A DNA stretch of 64,000 nt from Haloarcula limicola (GTDB lineage: Archaea > Halobacteriota > Halobacteria > Halobacteriales > Haloarculaceae). Position numbers and translations under genes: made by a program. The DNA is taken from positions 248,001 through 312,000 of the forward strand of contig NZ_WRXM01000001.1 in NCBI RefSeq assembly GCF_010119205.1, given 5' to 3'. The notes beneath the pieces were generated by a model that saw only the letters and a list, made by a program, of their open reading frames with translations, did not search any database and was not told where the DNA came from. How positions within the stretch are numbered: position 1 is the stretch's first letter; every line of letters begins with the position of its first letter. Shown piece by piece: positions 4,612-21,937 of the stretch.

Positions 4612-6018
4612 TCACGACCGGAACTCGACGCCGCCGAACTCGAAGCGCGCGCCGCCCGCCTCGCTCTCGCTTATCTCGAAGGTCCAGCCGTGCGTGGTCG
4701 CCACCTGCCCGACGATGGTCAGCCCGAACCCGGTCGTCCCGCCGGTCGAGTAACCGGCTTCGAGCACCTGCTCTCGCTCTGCTTCCGGGATGCCGACGCC
4801 GTCGTCCTCGACGAAGAACCCGTCGGCCGTCCGTCCCGTCCTGACGGTCACGTCGTCGCCGGCGTGGGCCGCCACGTTCCGGTAGAGGTTGGCGAACAGC
4901 TCCTTCAGCCGCGGCTCGCTCGCGACGATACGCGCGTCTCCGAGCTCGTTTTCGAGCGAGGCGTTCTCGGTCGCCGTATTCGCCCACGTCTCGTCGGCGA
5001 GCGCCGAGAGCGAGACGGTGTCGTCCGTCTCGACCTCCTCCATGTGCGCCAGCGTGAGGAGGTCGGAGACAATGTCCTTCATCCGGTCGGTGGCCGCCTC
5101 GATCTCGTCGAAGTACTCCTCGTCGCCGGTCTTCCGAGCCTCCTCCGTGTAGAGTTCGACGATGTTGATCGGGTTTCTGAGGTCGTGGGACACCATGCTC
5201 GCGAACTGATCGAGGCGCTCGTTCTCGCGTTCGAGCGCCGCCTCGCGCTCCTTCCGCTCGGTGACGTCCTCGACGGCGCAGACGAACCCGTCGTTCGTGA
5301 TCGGCGAGACGGTGACGTGAAGCGTCATCTCGGTGCCGTCCGGTTCGGTGACCGTCGTCTCCGTCTCCCACTGGTCCATCGGGGGCTCGAACTCCGGTTC
5401 GACGTGCGCGGTCACCTCCTCCGGGATGACGCAGTCCCACTCGTTGCCCAGGAGCTCGTTCTGGTCGTAGCCGAACAGGTTCGCGAACGCCTCGTTGACG
5501 TAGTTGAACTCGAAATCGCGCGTCACGAGCGCGATCCCCTCGTCCGTGATCTCGATCGCCTTGAACCCGCGGTGGATCTCCTTCTCGGCGCGGCGGTTCT
5601 CGACGGCCTGTCTGATGTGTCTCGCGAGGACGGCGAATCGAATGTCGTCGCTGCCCTTCTGGAGGTAGTTCGTCGCGCCGGCCGAGAGCGCGTCGGACGC
5701 CACGTCCTCGCTCCCGGTCCCGGTGAAGACGATGAATGGGAGGTTGTGGTCGTCGTCGCGGACGATCCGCAGGAGGTCGATACCGGTCCGGTCCCGGAGT
5801 TCGTAGTCGCTGACGATACAGTCGATATCGGTCCCCTCGTCGGCGTAGCGGTCGAGCGCGGCGTCGACCGAATCGACGGAGACGATCTCGGTGATATTCG
5901 GCTCGCGGCCCAGCTTCAGCTCCGTGGCTCGCCGGAACTGCTCGTCGTCGTCGACGTGGAGGACAACGATGTCGGAAGCGAGCGTCCGGTCCGGAGAAAC
6001 TGGCTCTACGCTGTCCAT
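4612..6018 (-). CDS. Hybrid sensor: receiver-PAS-histidine kinase
   Basis: A 468-residue soluble protein. Residues 16-135 form a receiver domain with the acidic pocket DDD (23-25) and phospho-acceptor Asp71 in IVSDYEL. Residues about 150-255 are a PAS domain (ITDEGIALVTRDFEFNYVN). A HisKA domain follows with phospho-His278 in SHDLRNP, then a HATPase domain with N-box NLYRNVAAHA, G1 box DDGVGIP and G2 box GFGLTIV. No transmembrane helix is present, so it senses an intracellular signal or works as a phosphorelay intermediate. The ATG at 6018 is preferred; a TTG seven codons upstream is also in frame. No separate response regulator is adjacent; the downstream winged-helix and HalOD1 genes are the likely outputs (inference). 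Confidence 0.9.
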   Translation of the reverse strand: MDSVEPVSPDRTLASDIVVLHVDDDEQFRRATELKLGREPNITEIVSVDSVDAALDRYADEGTDIDCIVSDYELRDRTGIDLLRIVRDDDHNLPFIVFTGTGSEDVASDALSAGATNYLQKGSDDIRFAVLARHIRQAVENRRAEKEIHRGFKAIEITDEGIALVTRDFEFNYVNEAFANLFGYDQNELLGNEWDCVIPEEVTAHVEPEFEPPMDQWETETTVTEPDGTEMTLHVTVSPITNDGFVCAVEDVTERKEREAALERENERLDQFASMVSHDLRNPINIVELYTEEARKTGDEEYFDEIEAATDRMKDIVSDLLTLAHMEEVETDDTVSLSALADETWANTATENASLENELGDARIVASEPRLKELFANLYRNVAAHAGDDVTVRTGRTADGFFVEDDGVGIPEAEREQVLEAGYSTGGTTGFGLTIVGQVATTHGWTFEISESEAGGARFEFGGVEFRS

Positions 6019-16257: not shown

Positions 16258-18210
16258 ATGAGCGAAACAGCGAGTCCTGGCTCGGACAGGCTCGGAACGG
16301 AGAGATTAGCGCAGAAGATTCGCGAGTTCGTCCGATATATCCCGGCGGGCGATACGATTCCCGACGAGACGTGGCAGAGGCGACACCGAAACATCCTCCT
16401 GGTCGTCCTCGCGCACGTCCCGTTTCTCCTGCTGCTCGGTCTGTACGACGGCACCGAGTCGCTGGTGACCGGGGCGACGATTCCGGAGGTCCCGGTGACG
16501 ACCCTCGCGTTCGAACTCGGAATCGTCGCCACTCTCGTCGGTCTCGCGGCGCTCCCGCGGTTCGGCCGGCGCGTCCGCACCGCGCTCGCGTCCACGTCGC
16601 TCCTGTCCTGTTCGGTCGTCCTCGTCCACCTCTCGGGCGGATTCATCGAGGCGCACTTTCACTTCTTCGTCGGGATGGCGGTCATCGCCGTCTACGAGGA
16701 CTGGGTGCCGTTCGCGCTCGGGATCGCCTACGTCGTCCTCGGCCACGGCGTCTTCGGCATGATAAATCCCGAGCGCGTCTACAACCACCCGGCGGCGATC
16801 GAACACCCGTGGGTGTGGGGGCTCGTCCACGGCGTGTTCGTCCTCGGACTGGCCGCGGCGCTGATGACGCACTGGTACTCGACCGAGCGCTCCCGCGAGG
16901 AGACCGAGCAGAAACTGCGGGAGGTCCGAGCGAAGACCGAAGAGGTCGAGAACCTCGAAGCCAAGCGCGAGGAGATAGCGGCCGAGAAGGCCGAAGCCGA
17001 GGAGCTGAAAGCCGAGGCCGAAGCTCGGCAGGCCGAGGTCGAAGACCTCGTCACGCACCTCGAAGCGAAAGCCGACGCCTACAGCGACGGGATGGCGAAG
17101 GCGGCAGACGGAGACTTGACCGTTCGACTGGACCCCGATAGCGAGAGCGAAGCCATGACCCAGATCGGGGCGTCGTTCAACGAGATGTTGGACGAGACCG
17201 CCTCGGCGATGCGGGAGATCCAGTCGTTCGCGGAGACGGTGAAGACGGCGAGCGAGGAGGCCGACGCCGGGACGGCCGAGGCCAGAACGGCCAGCGAGGA
17301 GGTGGGACGCTCCATCCAGGAGATCTCCGACGGGACGGCCGACCAGCGCGAGCGCCTCGAACGGGTCTCCGGCGAGATGACCGAACTGTCGGCGACGGTC
17401 GAGGAGGTCGCCGCCTCCGCCGAGACGGTCGCCCAGCGGTCCCGTGAGACGACCGAGATCGCCGAGGACGGCGAGCGGACGGCGACCGACGCGATAGCCG
17501 ACGCGAGAGACGTGCAGGCGGCTATCGACGCCACCGTGGACGACGTCGAGACGCTCGACGAGCAGATGGCCGAGATCGGCGAGATCATCGAACTCATCAG
17601 CGACATCGCCGAGCAGACGAACATGCTCGCGCTCAACGCGAACATCGAGGCCGCGCGCGCCGGTGACGGCGGCGGCGGTGACGGGTTCGCCGTCGTCGCC
17701 GACGAGGTGAAGCAGTTGGCCGAGGAGACGCGGGACTCGGCGACCGAGATCGAGCGACGCATCGAGCAGACCCAGTCCCAGACGACCGCGACCGTCGAGC
17801 GGGCGCGGGCGGCCGAACGCGACATGGCCGAGAGCGTCGAGGCGGTCGAGGACGTCGTCGACGCCTTCGAGCGGGTCGCGGAGAACGCCGACGACACCGA
17901 CGGCGGTATCCAGGAGATACGCGACACGACGGAGGAACAGGCCGCGAGCACCGAGGAGGCGGCGTCGATGGTCGAGGAAGTCACCGACAGCAGTCGGTCG
18001 ACGGCGAGGGAGGCGGAGACCGCCTCAGCGGCCGCGGAGGAACAGGCCGCATCCATGTCGCAGGTCAGCGCGAACGTCGAGTCGCTCAGCGACCAGGCGG
18101 ACCGACTCCGCTCGCTGCTGGCGACGTTCGAGGTGGGGACCGGGTCACAGATGCGGTCGGCGGGCGGAGACCGGGCGACCGTGCTGGAAGACGGTGGGCA
18201 ACCGGAGTAA
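16258..18210 (+). CDS. Methyl-accepting chemotaxis transducer
   Basis: 650 residues. An N-terminal block of about six transmembrane helices (residues 45-210, e.g. [37 protein letters not shown]) is followed by a coiled coil, a HAMP-like segment ([20 protein letters not shown]) and a long signalling domain. The hairpin tip reads [18 protein letters not shown] then [16 protein letters not shown], the conserved site contacting CheA/CheW. The sensory part is membrane-embedded rather than a periplasmic ligand domain, so it may sense energy state, redox or a membrane partner. Methylation-type Glu pairs ([13 protein letters not shown]) occur near the C terminus. Confidence 0.92.
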
Positions 18211-18228: not shown

Positions 18229-19866
18229 TCACAGCCGCTCGTCGACGTGGTCGGCGCACTTCAGCGCGAGCGCCGCGATGGTCAGCGTCGGGTTCATCGA
18301 CCCCGCCGTGATGAACACCGACGACGAGGCTATCGAGAGGTTCGCCACGTCGTAGGTCCGCAACTGCGGGTTCACGACGCTCTCCTCGGGGTCGGTGCCC
18401 ATCCGCGTCGTCCCCATATGATGGTACGCCGGGCCGGACCCGCCGCTCTCCGGGCCGGCGGTCCAACTGATATCGACGCCCAGCTCCGAGAGGACGGCGT
18501 GCTGGATGTCGTTCGTTCGGGCCATCGTCCGCTTCGCGCGCGGCCCCCACGACCACTGGATGTCGGGGACGGGGTTGCCGTGGTCGTCGGTGGTCGAAGT
18601 GTCGAGCGTCACTCGGTTCTCCCTTCTGGGCGGCTGACCGACGAGGCCGCCCATCGCGATGCTGTTGCCGTACGCTTCGCGCAGGTCGCCCAGTAGCTCG
18701 TCGCCCCAGTCGTCGGCCGAGAGCGCCAGTTCGACGGGCGACGGGCCAGCGTAGTTCAGGAACTCCAGTTTGATCGGCGAGAACGGCTCGTCGCTGGCCG
18801 GCACGACCGTCTCGCCGTCGCCGACTCGTTCGACGGCCCGTCCGGGGTCGTCGTAGAACTGGTGGCACTCGCTGGTGATGAAGCCGACGTGGTTCTGTCT
18901 CGTGCGCTCGTCGAGCGTCCCGCCCGCACCGGCGAAGAGGTGGTCCATGAAGTACCGGCCGACCGCTCCCGAGGAGTTGGCGAGACCGTCGGGGTGGTCC
19001 TCGGAGCGCGAGAGGAGCAACAGGCGCGGGATCTCGACGCCGCCGGCCGCGAGGACGAACTCCCGCGCTTCCTGCCGGCGTTCGGTGCCGTCCGGCGTCG
19101 CGTAGACGGCCGCGGTGACCCGGCCCTCGCCGTCGGTTTCGAGGCGCTGGACCGGTACGCGGTCGAGCACCGTCGCGCCCGCTTCCTCCGCGTCCTCGAT
19201 ATGGACGCTCGCGTCGTACTTCGCCCCGGAGGGACACACCGGCTGGCAGGTGCCGTAGCCGACGCAGGGACCGCGGCCGTCGTAGGACTCGGAGTTGCGG
19301 GCGTTGGGGACGCCGTGCATCGTGATACCGAGGGACTCGCAGGCCTCGGCGAACAGCGAGTCGCTGTAGGAGGGAGGGAAGCCCGCCATCGGATACGGTT
19401 CCTCTCGCGGCGGCGCGAACGGGTTGTCCGCGTCGCCCGCGACGCCCATCGCCTTCTCCGCCTCGGCGTAGTACGGCCGCAGGTCCTCGTAGCCGATGGG
19501 CCACGCCGGATCGCCGTTGCCGTGGCTCCCCTCGAAATCCGACGGGTGTAGTCGCATCACCATCCCCTGCCAGTGGAGCGTGGACCCGCCGACGCCCTTC
19601 ACCCGCGAGACGTTGAGCGGGTAGTACCGCTCGCCGCTGGCCGAGAAGGCGTCGCGCTGGCCGCCCATCTCCCACACCGACCCCCGATGAGCCGGACGGA
19701 TAGACTCCTCCATCCGTTCCTGCCGGTCCGAAAAGTCGAACCGCGGCCCGGCTTCTAAGACGACTACGTCGTAGCCGTCGCTGGCGAGACGGCTGGCGAC
19801 GAGCGCACCCGCCGGCCCGGCACCGACGACGCAGACGTCGGCTCGGCGAGTCGGCTCTCTGTCCAT
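18229..19866 (-). CDS. GMC-family FAD dehydrogenase with Fe-S motif
   Basis: 545 residues. Dinucleotide-binding VVGAGPAGALVASRLASDGY at the N terminus, GVGGSTLHWQGM for FAD, and the C-terminal catalytic region YHHMGTTRMG and GSMNPTLTIAALAL identify a glucose-methanol-choline oxidoreductase. Cys201, Cys207 and Cys211 (C-x5-C-x3-C) match the spacing reported for the [3Fe-4S] cluster of bacterial membrane-linked FAD-glucose dehydrogenase alpha subunits. It therefore probably passes electrons to a respiratory acceptor rather than oxygen. The small gamma and cytochrome subunits usual in bacteria are not adjacent. No Tat signal is seen. A TTAGGC-type palindrome lies 12-25 bp upstream of the ATG. 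Confidence 0.88.
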   Translation of the reverse strand: MDREPTRRADVCVVGAGPAGALVASRLASDGYDVVVLEAGPRFDFSDRQERMEESIRPAHRGSVWEMGGQRDAFSASGERYYPLNVSRVKGVGGSTLHWQGMVMRLHPSDFEGSHGNGDPAWPIGYEDLRPYYAEAEKAMGVAGDADNPFAPPREEPYPMAGFPPSYSDSLFAEACESLGITMHGVPNARNSESYDGRGPCVGYGTCQPVCPSGAKYDASVHIEDAEEAGATVLDRVPVQRLETDGEGRVTAAVYATPDGTERRQEAREFVLAAGGVEIPRLLLLSRSEDHPDGLANSSGAVGRYFMDHLFAGAGGTLDERTRQNHVGFITSECHQFYDDPGRAVERVGDGETVVPASDEPFSPIKLEFLNYAGPSPVELALSADDWGDELLGDLREAYGNSIAMGGLVGQPPRRENRVTLDTSTTDDHGNPVPDIQWSWGPRAKRTMARTNDIQHAVLSELGVDISWTAGPESGGSGPAYHHMGTTRMGTDPEESVVNPQLRTYDVANLSIASSSVFITAGSMNPTLTIAALALKCADHVDERL

Positions 19867-19877
19867 CTCGGCGGTGA

Positions 19878-19891
19878 TTAGGCGAGCCTAA
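19878..19891. promoter_or_regulatory. Iron-box-like palindrome TTAGGCGAGCCTAA
   Basis: A perfect 6+2+6 inverted repeat immediately upstream of the GMC dehydrogenase start, just downstream of a TATA-like CATAAGT (minus strand). The half-site TTAGGC resembles DtxR/IdeR-family metal-dependent repressor boxes. This position would block transcription initiation. It fits control of an iron-sulfur enzyme by iron, but the binding protein is inferred. Confidence 0.55.
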
Positions 19892-19903
19892 ACTTATGCG
19901 TTG

Positions 19904-21046
19904 TTATCGTGACTCGGGCGCTGTGCGTAACAGCACCACCTGTAGTTCGTCTTCCGATTGCGGACTCGACGTGCCGCTGATGACGTAGCCGCCGTCGTCC
20001 AAGCCGACGATAGCCTCCGTGCGGTTGATCCAGTCGCCGGTGAGATACTGCGCTGACCACCGCCGCTCTCCGTCGGCGTCGAGCCGCACGGCCTGATACT
20101 CGTCACTCCGGCCGACAACCGCGATTCCCCCGTCCGCCGCTTCGACGATGCCTCGACAGACACTCCTAGGCGTGAACCGCGTCTCCCACAGTTTGTCGCC
20201 GCCGCCGTCGGTTCGGACGACTCGCGTCTGCTGGTCGTCGTCAGACGTTTCTCGCACGTAGCCGACCGTCGCGTAACCGCCGTCGCGCGTCTGCGTCACC
20301 GAGTAGAAGTCGTCTCGGTCGTGCCCGCCGAACCCGCTTACCCACTCGATGCGGCCGTCCGCGGCCCACTTCGTCAGCCGCCCGTGCATGACCGAGGCGA
20401 ACCCGCCGTCTTCCGTCGCCACGATGTCCTGTGCCGAACGTCGCTCGAACCACTCTCTGTTCCCGTCGGGGCCCGCTTTGAACACCATCGACCCCGCGCC
20501 GACGAGGCCCCCGTCCGGTAACTGAACGACCGAGGAGAGCCAGTCGCCATCCCTCCCGGGCGTGTGGGTCCGCGTCGGTTCACCGTTCGAATCGAGCCTG
20601 AGCAACTTCGGTTCCCCGTCGGTTCCCAATGGCGACTCACAGACGACGTAGCCGTCGTCGACGACGTGAATCCCGGTGAACCGACGCGCCGCGTAGGTGC
20701 GACTCCACTCTTCGGACCCGCTCGCATCGACTTTGACCACCCACGGAAACGACGAGTCGACGCACCCGGACGTCCGCGCGTGTCCCACGAGCACGTATCC
20801 GCCGTCGTCGGTTCGCGCCATGTCCTCGTTTCGAACGTCGTCGGTTTCGCCGTAATACCGGACCCACCGCGTATCCGGTGGGTCGTGAGGATGTGCCGTC
20901 GCGGTACGAGCGGCGGTCCCACGGCCGAGTGCGATGCCCGCAAACACAGACGCGCCGAACGTTCGAAGCACCGTTCGACGGTTCGGCGTCTCGGTCTCTG
21001 TCGAGTCCACGGAGGCGGCATTTCGAAAGCGAGTAGGGAGCATCAC
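19904..21046 (-). CDS. Tat-exported beta-propeller-like protein
   Basis: 380 residues with a twin-arginine signal (NRRTVLRTFGASVFAGIALG, residues about 22-41) and no lipobox. The mature part contains repeated blades marked by DGGYVLVG, DGGLVGAG, DGGFASV, DGGYATVGY, DGGIAVVG and DGGYVISG, with 'W' or 'R' strands between, the signature of PQQ/SBBP-like beta-propellers of about seven blades. Likely a secreted or membrane-surface binding protein; no catalytic residues are recognisable. It lies 37 bp upstream of the GMC dehydrogenase on the same strand, so the two may share a message and electrons or a substrate (inference). Confidence 0.82.
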   Translation of the reverse strand: MMLPTRFRNAASVDSTETETPNRRTVLRTFGASVFAGIALGRGTAARTATAHPHDPPDTRWVRYYGETDDVRNEDMARTDDGGYVLVGHARTSGCVDSSFPWVVKVDASGSEEWSRTYAARRFTGIHVVDDGYVVCESPLGTDGEPKLLRLDSNGEPTRTHTPGRDGDWLSSVVQLPDGGLVGAGSMVFKAGPDGNREWFERRSAQDIVATEDGGFASVMHGRLTKWAADGRIEWVSGFGGHDRDDFYSVTQTRDGGYATVGYVRETSDDDQQTRVVRTDGGGDKLWETRFTPRSVCRGIVEAADGGIAVVGRSDEYQAVRLDADGERRWSAQYLTGDWINRTEAIVGLDDGGYVISGTSSPQSEDELQVVLLRTAPESR

Positions 21047-21163: not shown

Positions 21164-21937
21164 TCAGGGAATCTTCACGGAATGTTTCAGCGTGCCGATG
21201 CCCTCGACCTCGATCTCCACCTCGTCGCCGTCTTCGAGCGGGCCGACGCCCTCCGGCGTCCCGGTGGCGATGACGTCGCCGGGTTCGAGCGTCATGTATT
21301 CGGTGATCTCGGCGATGAGCTCCTCGACGGAGAAGATGAGGTGGTCGCGCGAGGAGGACTGCCTGGTCTCGCCGTTGACGCGGCACTCGATGCTGGCGTC
21401 GTCGGGGACGTGCTCCGGCGTGGCGACGAGCGGGCCGATGGGACAGGCGTTGTCGAAGGCCTTCCCGCGGACCCAGTTCTGCTCCTTTTCCTGGTCGTCG
21501 CGGTTCGAGATGTCGTTGAGGCAGGTGTAGCCCGCGACGACGTCCATCGCCCCGGACTCGCTGACGTTCTTGCACTGCTCGCCGATGACGACGGCGAGTT
21601 CCGCCTCGTGGTCGATGCGGTCCTTGCCTGACGGCATCGTGAGGTTCTTGCCGTGCGAGGCGACGGCGTTGGGCCCCTTCAGGAACAGCAACGGCCGGTC
21701 CGGCAGGTCGTTGCCCATCTCGTCGGCGTGGTCGGCGTAGTTGCGGCCGACGCAGACGATCTTGGTCGGTTCACACGGCGGGAGGATGTCCACCTCTTCG
21801 GGCGAGTAGCTCTCGTCGCCGAAGGCGATACGGCCGTACGGCCCGGCGGCCGCGGTGACCTTGGGCTCCCCGTCCTCGACGGTCCAGCGACCGCCCCGGA
21901 CGTTCCCCGCGGAGTCGCGGAATCGAACGCGCTTCAT
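21164..21937 (-). CDS. Fumarylacetoacetate hydrolase-family protein
   Basis: 257 residues. A short N-terminal domain precedes the FAH fold with the metal-binding and active-site features KIVCVGRNYADH, HEAELAVVIGE (Glu ligands), NDISNRDDQ and MTLEPGDVIATGTPEGVGPL. Family members hydrolyse or decarboxylate acyl-pyruvates and related diketo acids with Mg2+ (for example acylpyruvase or oxaloacetate decarboxylase); substrate cannot be told from sequence. Transcribed alone; a TATA-like CTTATC lies about 27 bp upstream of the ATG. Confidence 0.9.
   Translation of the reverse strand: MKRVRFRDSAGNVRGGRWTVEDGEPKVTAAAGPYGRIAFGDESYSPEEVDILPPCEPTKIVCVGRNYADHADEMGNDLPDRPLLFLKGPNAVASHGKNLTMPSGKDRIDHEAELAVVIGEQCKNVSESGAMDVVAGYTCLNDISNRDDQEKEQNWVRGKAFDNACPIGPLVATPEHVPDDASIECRVNGETRQSSSRDHLIFSVEELIAEITEYMTLEPGDVIATGTPEGVGPLEDGDEVEIEVEGIGTLKHSVKIP

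Follow-up and report, generated by a model that had tools for sequence, protein, structure and literature searches.

A GMC dehydrogenase gene of Haloarcula limicola behind an iron-box palindrome: predicted iron regulation and a possible link to ferric-iron acquisition

Locus and promoter region

The window analysed here is a 64-kb stretch of the 3.9-Mb genome of Haloarcula limicola (C1:248001-312000), and the subject of this work is a GMC oxidoreductase gene within it, together with the palindrome TTAGGCGAGCCTAA on its 5' side. The gene is read on the minus strand from an ATG at 19866 down to 18229, and 11 bases (19867-19877) separate the palindrome from this ATG, exactly where the original prediction had set an iron-box-like operator in front of a GMC dehydrogenase. 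The site before the GMC gene is the sole exact occurrence of TTAGGCNNGCCTAA within the window. On the far side of the palindrome from the ATG is a TATA-like CATAAG directed into the GMC gene, which may function as a promoter element; an A/T-rich element recurs at this place in the aligned promoters of the named loci described below (columns -14 to -3). Transcription in haloarchaea commonly starts at or near the ATG, and if this is the case here, a protein bound to the palindrome would lie between the TATA box and the start, a position that would suit repression. The features of the locus are listed in Table 1.

Table 1. Features of the GMC locus, in positions of the window
Feature	Position	Strand	Basis and remarks
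GMC oxidoreductase, 545 aa, catalytic subunit of a predicted FAD/[3Fe-4S] dehydrogenase	18229..19866	-	Pfam, phmmer, AlphaFold
Codons Cys201 to Cys211, with predicted [3Fe-4S] ligands Cys201, 207 and 211 (C-x5-C-x3-C)	19234..19266	-	
Iron-box palindrome	19878..19891	.	Exact match; genome enrichment; same place in orthologues
TATA-like CATAAG	19893..19898	-	Direct reading
Repeat/propeller-like protein with Tat-like start, 380 aa, judged not part of the system	19904..21046	-	No Pfam match; weak NCBIfam matches below cut-off
Fumarylacetoacetate-hydrolase family gene (FAH)	21164..21937	-	PF01557; often located upstream of GMC or of the pair of small subunit and GMC

Genome-wide distribution of the palindrome

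Perfect sites of the form TTAGGN4CCTAA occur 13 times in the genome, against 4 for a reversed-pattern control. The expectation under independent, identically distributed bases is 0.015 per 64 kb and 0.9 per genome, and six simulated sequences of 3.9 Mb contained zero sites. Summed over 13 genomes (this one and 12 relatives), there are 183 perfect sites and 14 control sites, with one of these genomes (G036) running the opposite way at 0 perfect and 2 control sites. When one mismatch is allowed the excess is gone, with a genome total of 31 against 32 for the control, and perfect sites alone were therefore taken as evidence.

Most of the 13 perfect sites stand before iron-type genes. Three are located 4-6 bases ahead of Peripla_BP_2 lipoproteins and one is ahead of a FecCD permease. 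Another two, spaced 36 bases apart, precede an operon-like row that comprises an aminotransferase, a decarboxylase-like open reading frame (ORF) assigned by eye and an IucA/IucC protein. Single sites precede a ferric-type solute-binding protein, an RGP-family protein encoded directly upstream of this binding protein, a Gluconate_2-dh3 protein that is the small subunit described below, the GMC gene, and a weak Amphi-Trp match below the cut-off. The closest ORFs downstream of the last two sites (L011:4955-4968 and L014:5071-5084) encode 53 and 39 aa of no known kind. The search for the palindrome near iron genes that accompanied the original prediction has given both an enrichment and the expected type of neighbour. 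A palindromic operator shared by iron-uptake genes is a feature of DtxR-family iron regulons, and the genome encodes DtxR-family proteins, with ten matches to PF01325, five of them above the cut-off and three of these strong. One DtxR-family gene, on contig C5 (L002), directly follows a metal-ABC-type permease gene (the permease was read by eye) and could encode a regulator responding to another metal.

Single-mismatch palindromes are also present before other genes of iron metabolism. Two Dps/ferritin-like genes have such sites approximately 52-94 bases before the ATG (L011:4102-4115 and L021:4143-4156), further upstream than the sites of the uptake genes, and these could be activation sites. 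Others precede SufC and SufS of iron-sulphur (Fe-S) cluster assembly (L018:4481-4494 and L020:4270-4283). Since the single-mismatch class is not enriched, these four sites are suggestive and were not used as proof.

Conservation of the operator in orthologues and paralogues

The same-genus set consists of 30 loci including that of the window, and the site is perfect in 28 and carries one mismatch in two, always just before the GMC start. The remaining two same-genus genomes (G012 and G020) contain broken or duplicated GMC copies (L100, L101 and L102), which also lie behind perfect sites. Among 16 loci from other genera (L084-L099), a perfect site is located directly before the unit in 13 and a site with one mismatch in one; L088 and L090 carry the site solely at the start of an Fbp-like gene row whose last members are the small subunit and GMC. 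A further set of named loci, the best 80 of 589 confirmed stretches, overlaps with these two and shares at least six contigs with them, as judged by equal length. The site is perfect in 71 named loci (counting L148, with its perfect site at 5438), has one mismatch in six, is absent from two and is unreadable at a contig edge in one. The gap between site and start is 7-14 bases in 69 of the 76 named loci measured; two of the six single-mismatch sites are 40 and 89 bases from the start. In both the same-genus and the named loci the half-sites are conserved and the four central bases vary, though the column conservation in the named loci is biased upward because only sites within one mismatch were counted. 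Orthologues occur in Haloferax species and in Halobacterium salinarum.

Paralogues with 47-58% identity served as a control, and none of their 19 loci (18 with GMC genes and one with PF13618 only) has a site within one mismatch. By coordinates, a PF13618 match is found near 17 of the 18 paralogue GMC genes. In a tree of 64 GMC rows, a single branch with a Shimodaira-Hasegawa-like approximate likelihood ratio test (SH-aLRT) value of 99 splits 45 rows of the boxed line from the 19 paralogues. This tree comes from a short search with a midpoint root; L100 was left out, L088 is labelled as boxed though its site is only at the row head, and L090, with its site likewise at the row head only, was kept in the boxed group. 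Because the site is kept in the orthologues and is missing at 19 of 19 paralogue loci, the predicted iron regulation of the GMC gene, which the original prediction had drawn as a coherent picture from operator and cofactor, is strongly supported at the level of sequence.

Predicted fold and cofactor sites of the GMC enzyme

The GMC protein contains GMC_oxred_N and GMC_oxred_C domains above the Pfam cut-off. The catalytic subunit of the Burkholderia flavin adenine dinucleotide (FAD)-glucose dehydrogenase is a near relative of solved structure (phmmer E 7e-86), and that of Gluconobacter fructose dehydrogenase is also among the closest solved relatives. An AlphaFold model of the protein, with a predicted local distance difference test (pLDDT) of 88.8, fits the catalytic subunits of the fructose and glucose dehydrogenases with template modelling (TM) scores of 0.85-0.88, so that the GMC fold of the catalytic subunit of FAD/[3Fe-4S] dehydrogenase complexes is present.

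Cys201, Cys207 and Cys211 have the spacing seen in FAD-glucose dehydrogenase, as the original prediction stated, and align with Cys212, Cys218 and Cys222 of the Burkholderia enzyme (8hdd and 6a2u), which are described as its crystallographic cluster ligands (PMC6719666). Conservation of these cysteines in orthologues had been named beforehand as a point on which the prediction could fail, and the motif is found in 46 of 46 orthologue rows (L100 included, L099 and the broken copies L101 and L102 left out) and in 11 of 19 paralogue rows. The cluster itself is a prediction from this alignment; the AlphaFold model is uncertain at the cluster loop, with pLDDT <50 at residues 203-210, and its cluster geometry is unusable. 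His98 corresponds in the alignment to His105, to which FAD is linked in the Burkholderia enzyme (PMC6719666). His482 and Asn525, the presumed catalytic pair, match the conserved His and Asn of the C-terminal part and are kept in the orthologues. Val202 replaces the bacterial Cys213, which forms an inter-subunit disulphide with the small subunit in the Burkholderia complex. By most of the features examined, the GMC protein belongs with the FAD/[3Fe-4S] GMC dehydrogenase complexes, minus the cytochrome subunit. Its substrate would be a sugar or an alcohol.

Small subunit and the ferric-type ABC locus

The original prediction held that the usual small and cytochrome subunits are absent. For the small subunit this is correct in the neighbourhood of the GMC gene but not in the genome, where a single PF13618 (Gluconate_2-dh3) protein is encoded approximately 121 kb away (C1:388606-389154), with a score of 34.2 bits against a cut-off of 23.4 and a perfect palindrome of its own 10 bases 5' of the ATG. 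The N-terminus of this protein is MQLTRRDALAAL. All 12 aligned rows share a twin-arginine start, RRD at residues 5-7, which in two relatives is followed by a lipobox-like LAGC. The Pfam score, the RRD start and the adjacency to GMC in other genomes identify it as the small hitchhiker subunit with a twin-arginine translocation (Tat) signal that is typical of these dehydrogenase complexes. Two subunit genes of what would be one complex thus lie 121 kb apart in this genome, each behind the same type of operator. The absence of a multihaem cytochrome c subunit holds as far as the PF00034 search goes: this profile has zero matches in the genome, and other cytochrome models were not searched.

The small subunit gene is part of an operon-like row encoding a ferric-type binding protein, a permease, a PMT-like membrane protein (TM675), the small subunit and an ATPase. 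Searched against proteins of solved structure, the binding protein hits ferric-iron-binding proteins (best E 1.9e-44), as expected for an FbpABC-type locus. Of the 29 sequences listed in this search, 28 are binding proteins, with iron or Fe(3+) in the names of 25, and the remaining one is a myosin entry. Tyr293-Tyr294 of the binding protein is invariant in six rows; FbpA binds iron through a tyrosine pair. The permease contains a BPD_transp_1 domain and the ATPase ABC_tran and TOBE_2 domains (Pfam). The wider iron-boxed locus (L012, C1:382500-391000) comprises an RGP-family protein, the ferric-type ABC genes, the PMT-like DUF7846 protein, the small subunit and a dolichyl-phosphate hexose transferase, a family that NF041391 detects above its cut-off in this genome.

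Gene order and co-occurrence

The small subunit directly precedes GMC in 70 of the 80 named loci. The 6-kb flanks of these 70 contain FbpA, FbpB, TM675 or RGP in 43, FAH in 22 and neither in five; over all 80 named loci the FAH class numbers 27. A dolichyl-phosphate hexose transferase family gene, with a site of its own, often adjoins the pair. In the genus of the window, and in G033 and G034, GMC stands without an adjacent small subunit and behind its own palindrome. All seven same-genus genomes examined for gene order have the small subunit beside transporter genes or TM675. Only the present genome and G030 have a site directly before it, and in the other five the small subunit would have to rely on one nearer the head of the row. 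The operator and the pairing of GMC with the small subunit are both well supported by these sequence comparisons.

Co-occurrence was examined in 60 genomes, the present one included. GMC is found in 48 and PF13618 in 46, the latter in 46 of the 48 genomes with GMC and in none of the 12 without it, seven of which are <90% complete. PF13618 gave no match in two of the GMC genomes, G010, which is 71% complete, and G043, in which a small-subunit ORF was seen by eye. RGP and TM675 each occur in 50 of the 60 genomes, and these are the same 50; GMC is present in 48 of them and in none of the other 10 (Fisher p 9e-10 by genome and 2e-5 by genus, ignoring kinship). FbpA was also tried as a phylogenetic marker and was rejected as not discriminating.

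Neighbouring genes in the window

FAH is located upstream of GMC in 15 of the 30 same-genus loci, and tblastn detected neither FAH nor the propeller-like gene within 1.5 kb in the other 15. A chemotaxis transducer gene (MCPsignal, 16258-18210) lies tail-to-tail with the GMC gene, and tblastn places the same transducer beside GMC in three further same-genus loci (L025, L029 and L041).

Proposed function and alternatives

The reading that we favour, and hold to be reasonably probable, is that of a Tat-exported FAD/[3Fe-4S] dehydrogenase that is repressed by iron through a DtxR-type regulator and serves ferric-iron acquisition. GMC would be the catalytic subunit of a two-part enzyme in the haloarchaeal iron-starvation regulon. 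With sufficient iron, a DtxR-family regulator would occupy the palindrome, which lies between start codon and TATA-like element, and would thereby block transcription; iron shortage would lift this block. The GMC protein would then fold in the cytoplasm with FAD and the cluster, and the small subunit, encoded elsewhere in this genome behind the same type of operator, would carry it out through Tat. Outside the membrane, the enzyme would oxidise a sugar or alcohol group, and the electrons would leave via the cluster for an acceptor other than a cytochrome, which may be halocyanin or ferric iron. Most likely it would serve to capture ferric iron jointly with the Fbp-type transporter, whose locus contains the pair in many haloarchaea. 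The sequences show the operator with its conservation and its restriction to orthologues, the aligned Cys, His and Asn residues, a small subunit with a twin-arginine start and the synteny with ferric-type ABC genes. We infer which protein is the repressor and in which direction it acts, and likewise the joint export, the cluster, the substrate, the acceptor and a part in iron capture. Several Fe-S proteins decrease under iron starvation in Haloferax volcanii (PMC11349517), and the retention of an iron-containing enzyme behind an iron-uptake operator argues, short of proof, for an iron-getting task. It is also possible, if doubtful, that haloarchaea short of iron induce an extracellular, sugar-based route to ferric iron that is built around this flavin/iron-sulphur dehydrogenase. 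The RGP-type sugar mutase, the dolichyl-phosphate hexose transferase and the PMT-like transferase would make a surface sugar, and the exported dehydrogenase pair would oxidise it, giving either an oxidised sugar that binds iron or electrons that loosen bound Fe(III), with the Fbp-type transporter then importing the iron.

Several observations weigh against the favoured reading. A fold search with the small-subunit model against the PDB gave nothing at E <= 0.001 and a profile search gave no relevant chain, so the identity of this subunit rests on Pfam and gene neighbourhood. No NCBIfam model scores above its cut-off for the binding protein, the permease or the ATPase, and the best-scoring models for the ABC genes describe a 2-aminoethylphosphonate transporter; the ferric assignment therefore rests on the binding-protein matches and the operator. 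With FbpA in 57 of the 60 genomes, its distribution does not follow that of GMC. In five of the seven same-genus loci examined for gene order, a site immediately before the small subunit is lacking, and in the seven Haloferax and Halobacterium loci read the pair is beside FAH and not beside a transporter. Given the fall of Fe-S proteins under starvation, an Fe-S enzyme that rises would be unusual, and neither 'GMC' nor 'oxidoreductase' appears in the main text of the study on the proteome of iron-starved Haloferax volcanii (PMC11349517).

The placement of the Haloferax and Halobacterium pair beside FAH would suit a different, rather unlikely role, iron-sparing respiration, in which the iron-regulated exported dehydrogenase passes electrons from a sugar or alcohol to halocyanin, bypassing the iron-rich respiratory complexes and acquiring no iron. 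Haloarchaea are described as using the copper protein halocyanin in place of cytochrome c (PMC8305020), the genome has no PF00034 match, and Nuo subunits and ferredoxins drop under iron starvation (PMC11349517). Against this role, the enzyme itself should need three iron atoms, and the pair is near ferric-type transport genes in 43 of the 80 named loci. It is improbable that the palindrome answers to another metal, such as manganese, through a different DtxR-family regulator, with the link to iron being indirect. Such a regulator could be among the three strong DtxR-family genes (five over the cut-off), one of which is the gene on C5 behind the permease that was read by eye as metal-ABC-type.

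The remaining two explanations are far less credible. A palindrome that arose by chance, or one that belongs to the core promoter with no regulator acting on it, would agree with a single-mismatch class no commoner than the control (31 against 32), but chance was rejected on the counts of perfect sites (13 against 4, and 183 against 14 in 13 genomes) and on the expectation of 0.9 per genome, and the half-sites kept around four variable bases and the absence of the site from all 19 paralogue loci also speak against this explanation. The suggestion made in the original prediction, that the Tat-exported propeller gene stands in for the small and cytochrome subunits, did not survive and is now very improbable. 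This gene is directly upstream of GMC in the same direction, with a Tat-like start and a weak formate_TAT match below the cut-off. However, tblastn of the 30 same-genus loci with 1.5-kb flanks detects it near GMC only in the genome of the window, where it lies between FAH and GMC as a local insertion, and a PF13618 small subunit with its own palindrome is encoded elsewhere in the genome; the propeller was therefore rejected as a subunit.

Comparison with known systems

The closest described complex is the FAD-glucose dehydrogenase of Burkholderia cepacia (alpha/gamma/beta; 6a2u, 8grj and 8hdd), which shares by alignment the GMC fold, the cluster cysteines, the FAD-linking His and the His/Asn pair, and also a small subunit with a Tat-type start. 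The archaeal system differs from it in having no cytochrome c found with PF00034, Val202 in place of Cys213, an operator of the kind found before iron genes and a small subunit encoded 121 kb away. The fructose dehydrogenase of Gluconobacter (7w2j and 8jej) provides the best fold matches of the GMC model; it differs in being described as membrane-bound and haem-bearing in the entry titles. The bacterial FbpABC/HitABC-type transporters share the ferric-binding-protein match and the arrangement of binding-protein, permease and ATPase genes in one row, whereas the haloarchaeal locus has no NCBIfam transporter model above the cut-off and adds sugar-transfer genes and often the dehydrogenase pair.

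DtxR-family iron regulons are known in haloarchaea (TroR, Idr and SirR), with the same kind of target genes as found here, and DtxR-family proteins are encoded in the present genome. The ferR signal, credited to Leyn and Rodionov 2015, precedes the fhu genes of Haloferax (PMC11349517). The GMC gene may already be on a published target list of the haloarchaeal iron regulon, in which case its regulation would be known and only the pairing and the reading of the locus would be new; within the open-licence literature, no paper was found that links the boxed GMC to iron in haloarchaea.

Biological meaning

Iron capture by archaea is poorly known, and for Haloferax solid evidence on the export and re-import of siderophores is described as critically lacking (PMC11349517). 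The orthologues in Haloferax and Halobacterium salinarum make the present proposal testable. A dehydrogenase expected to spend iron on its own cluster, kept behind an uptake-type operator in many haloarchaeal genera and often close to ferric-type transporter genes, suggests that iron uptake in archaea includes a step of redox or sugar chemistry.

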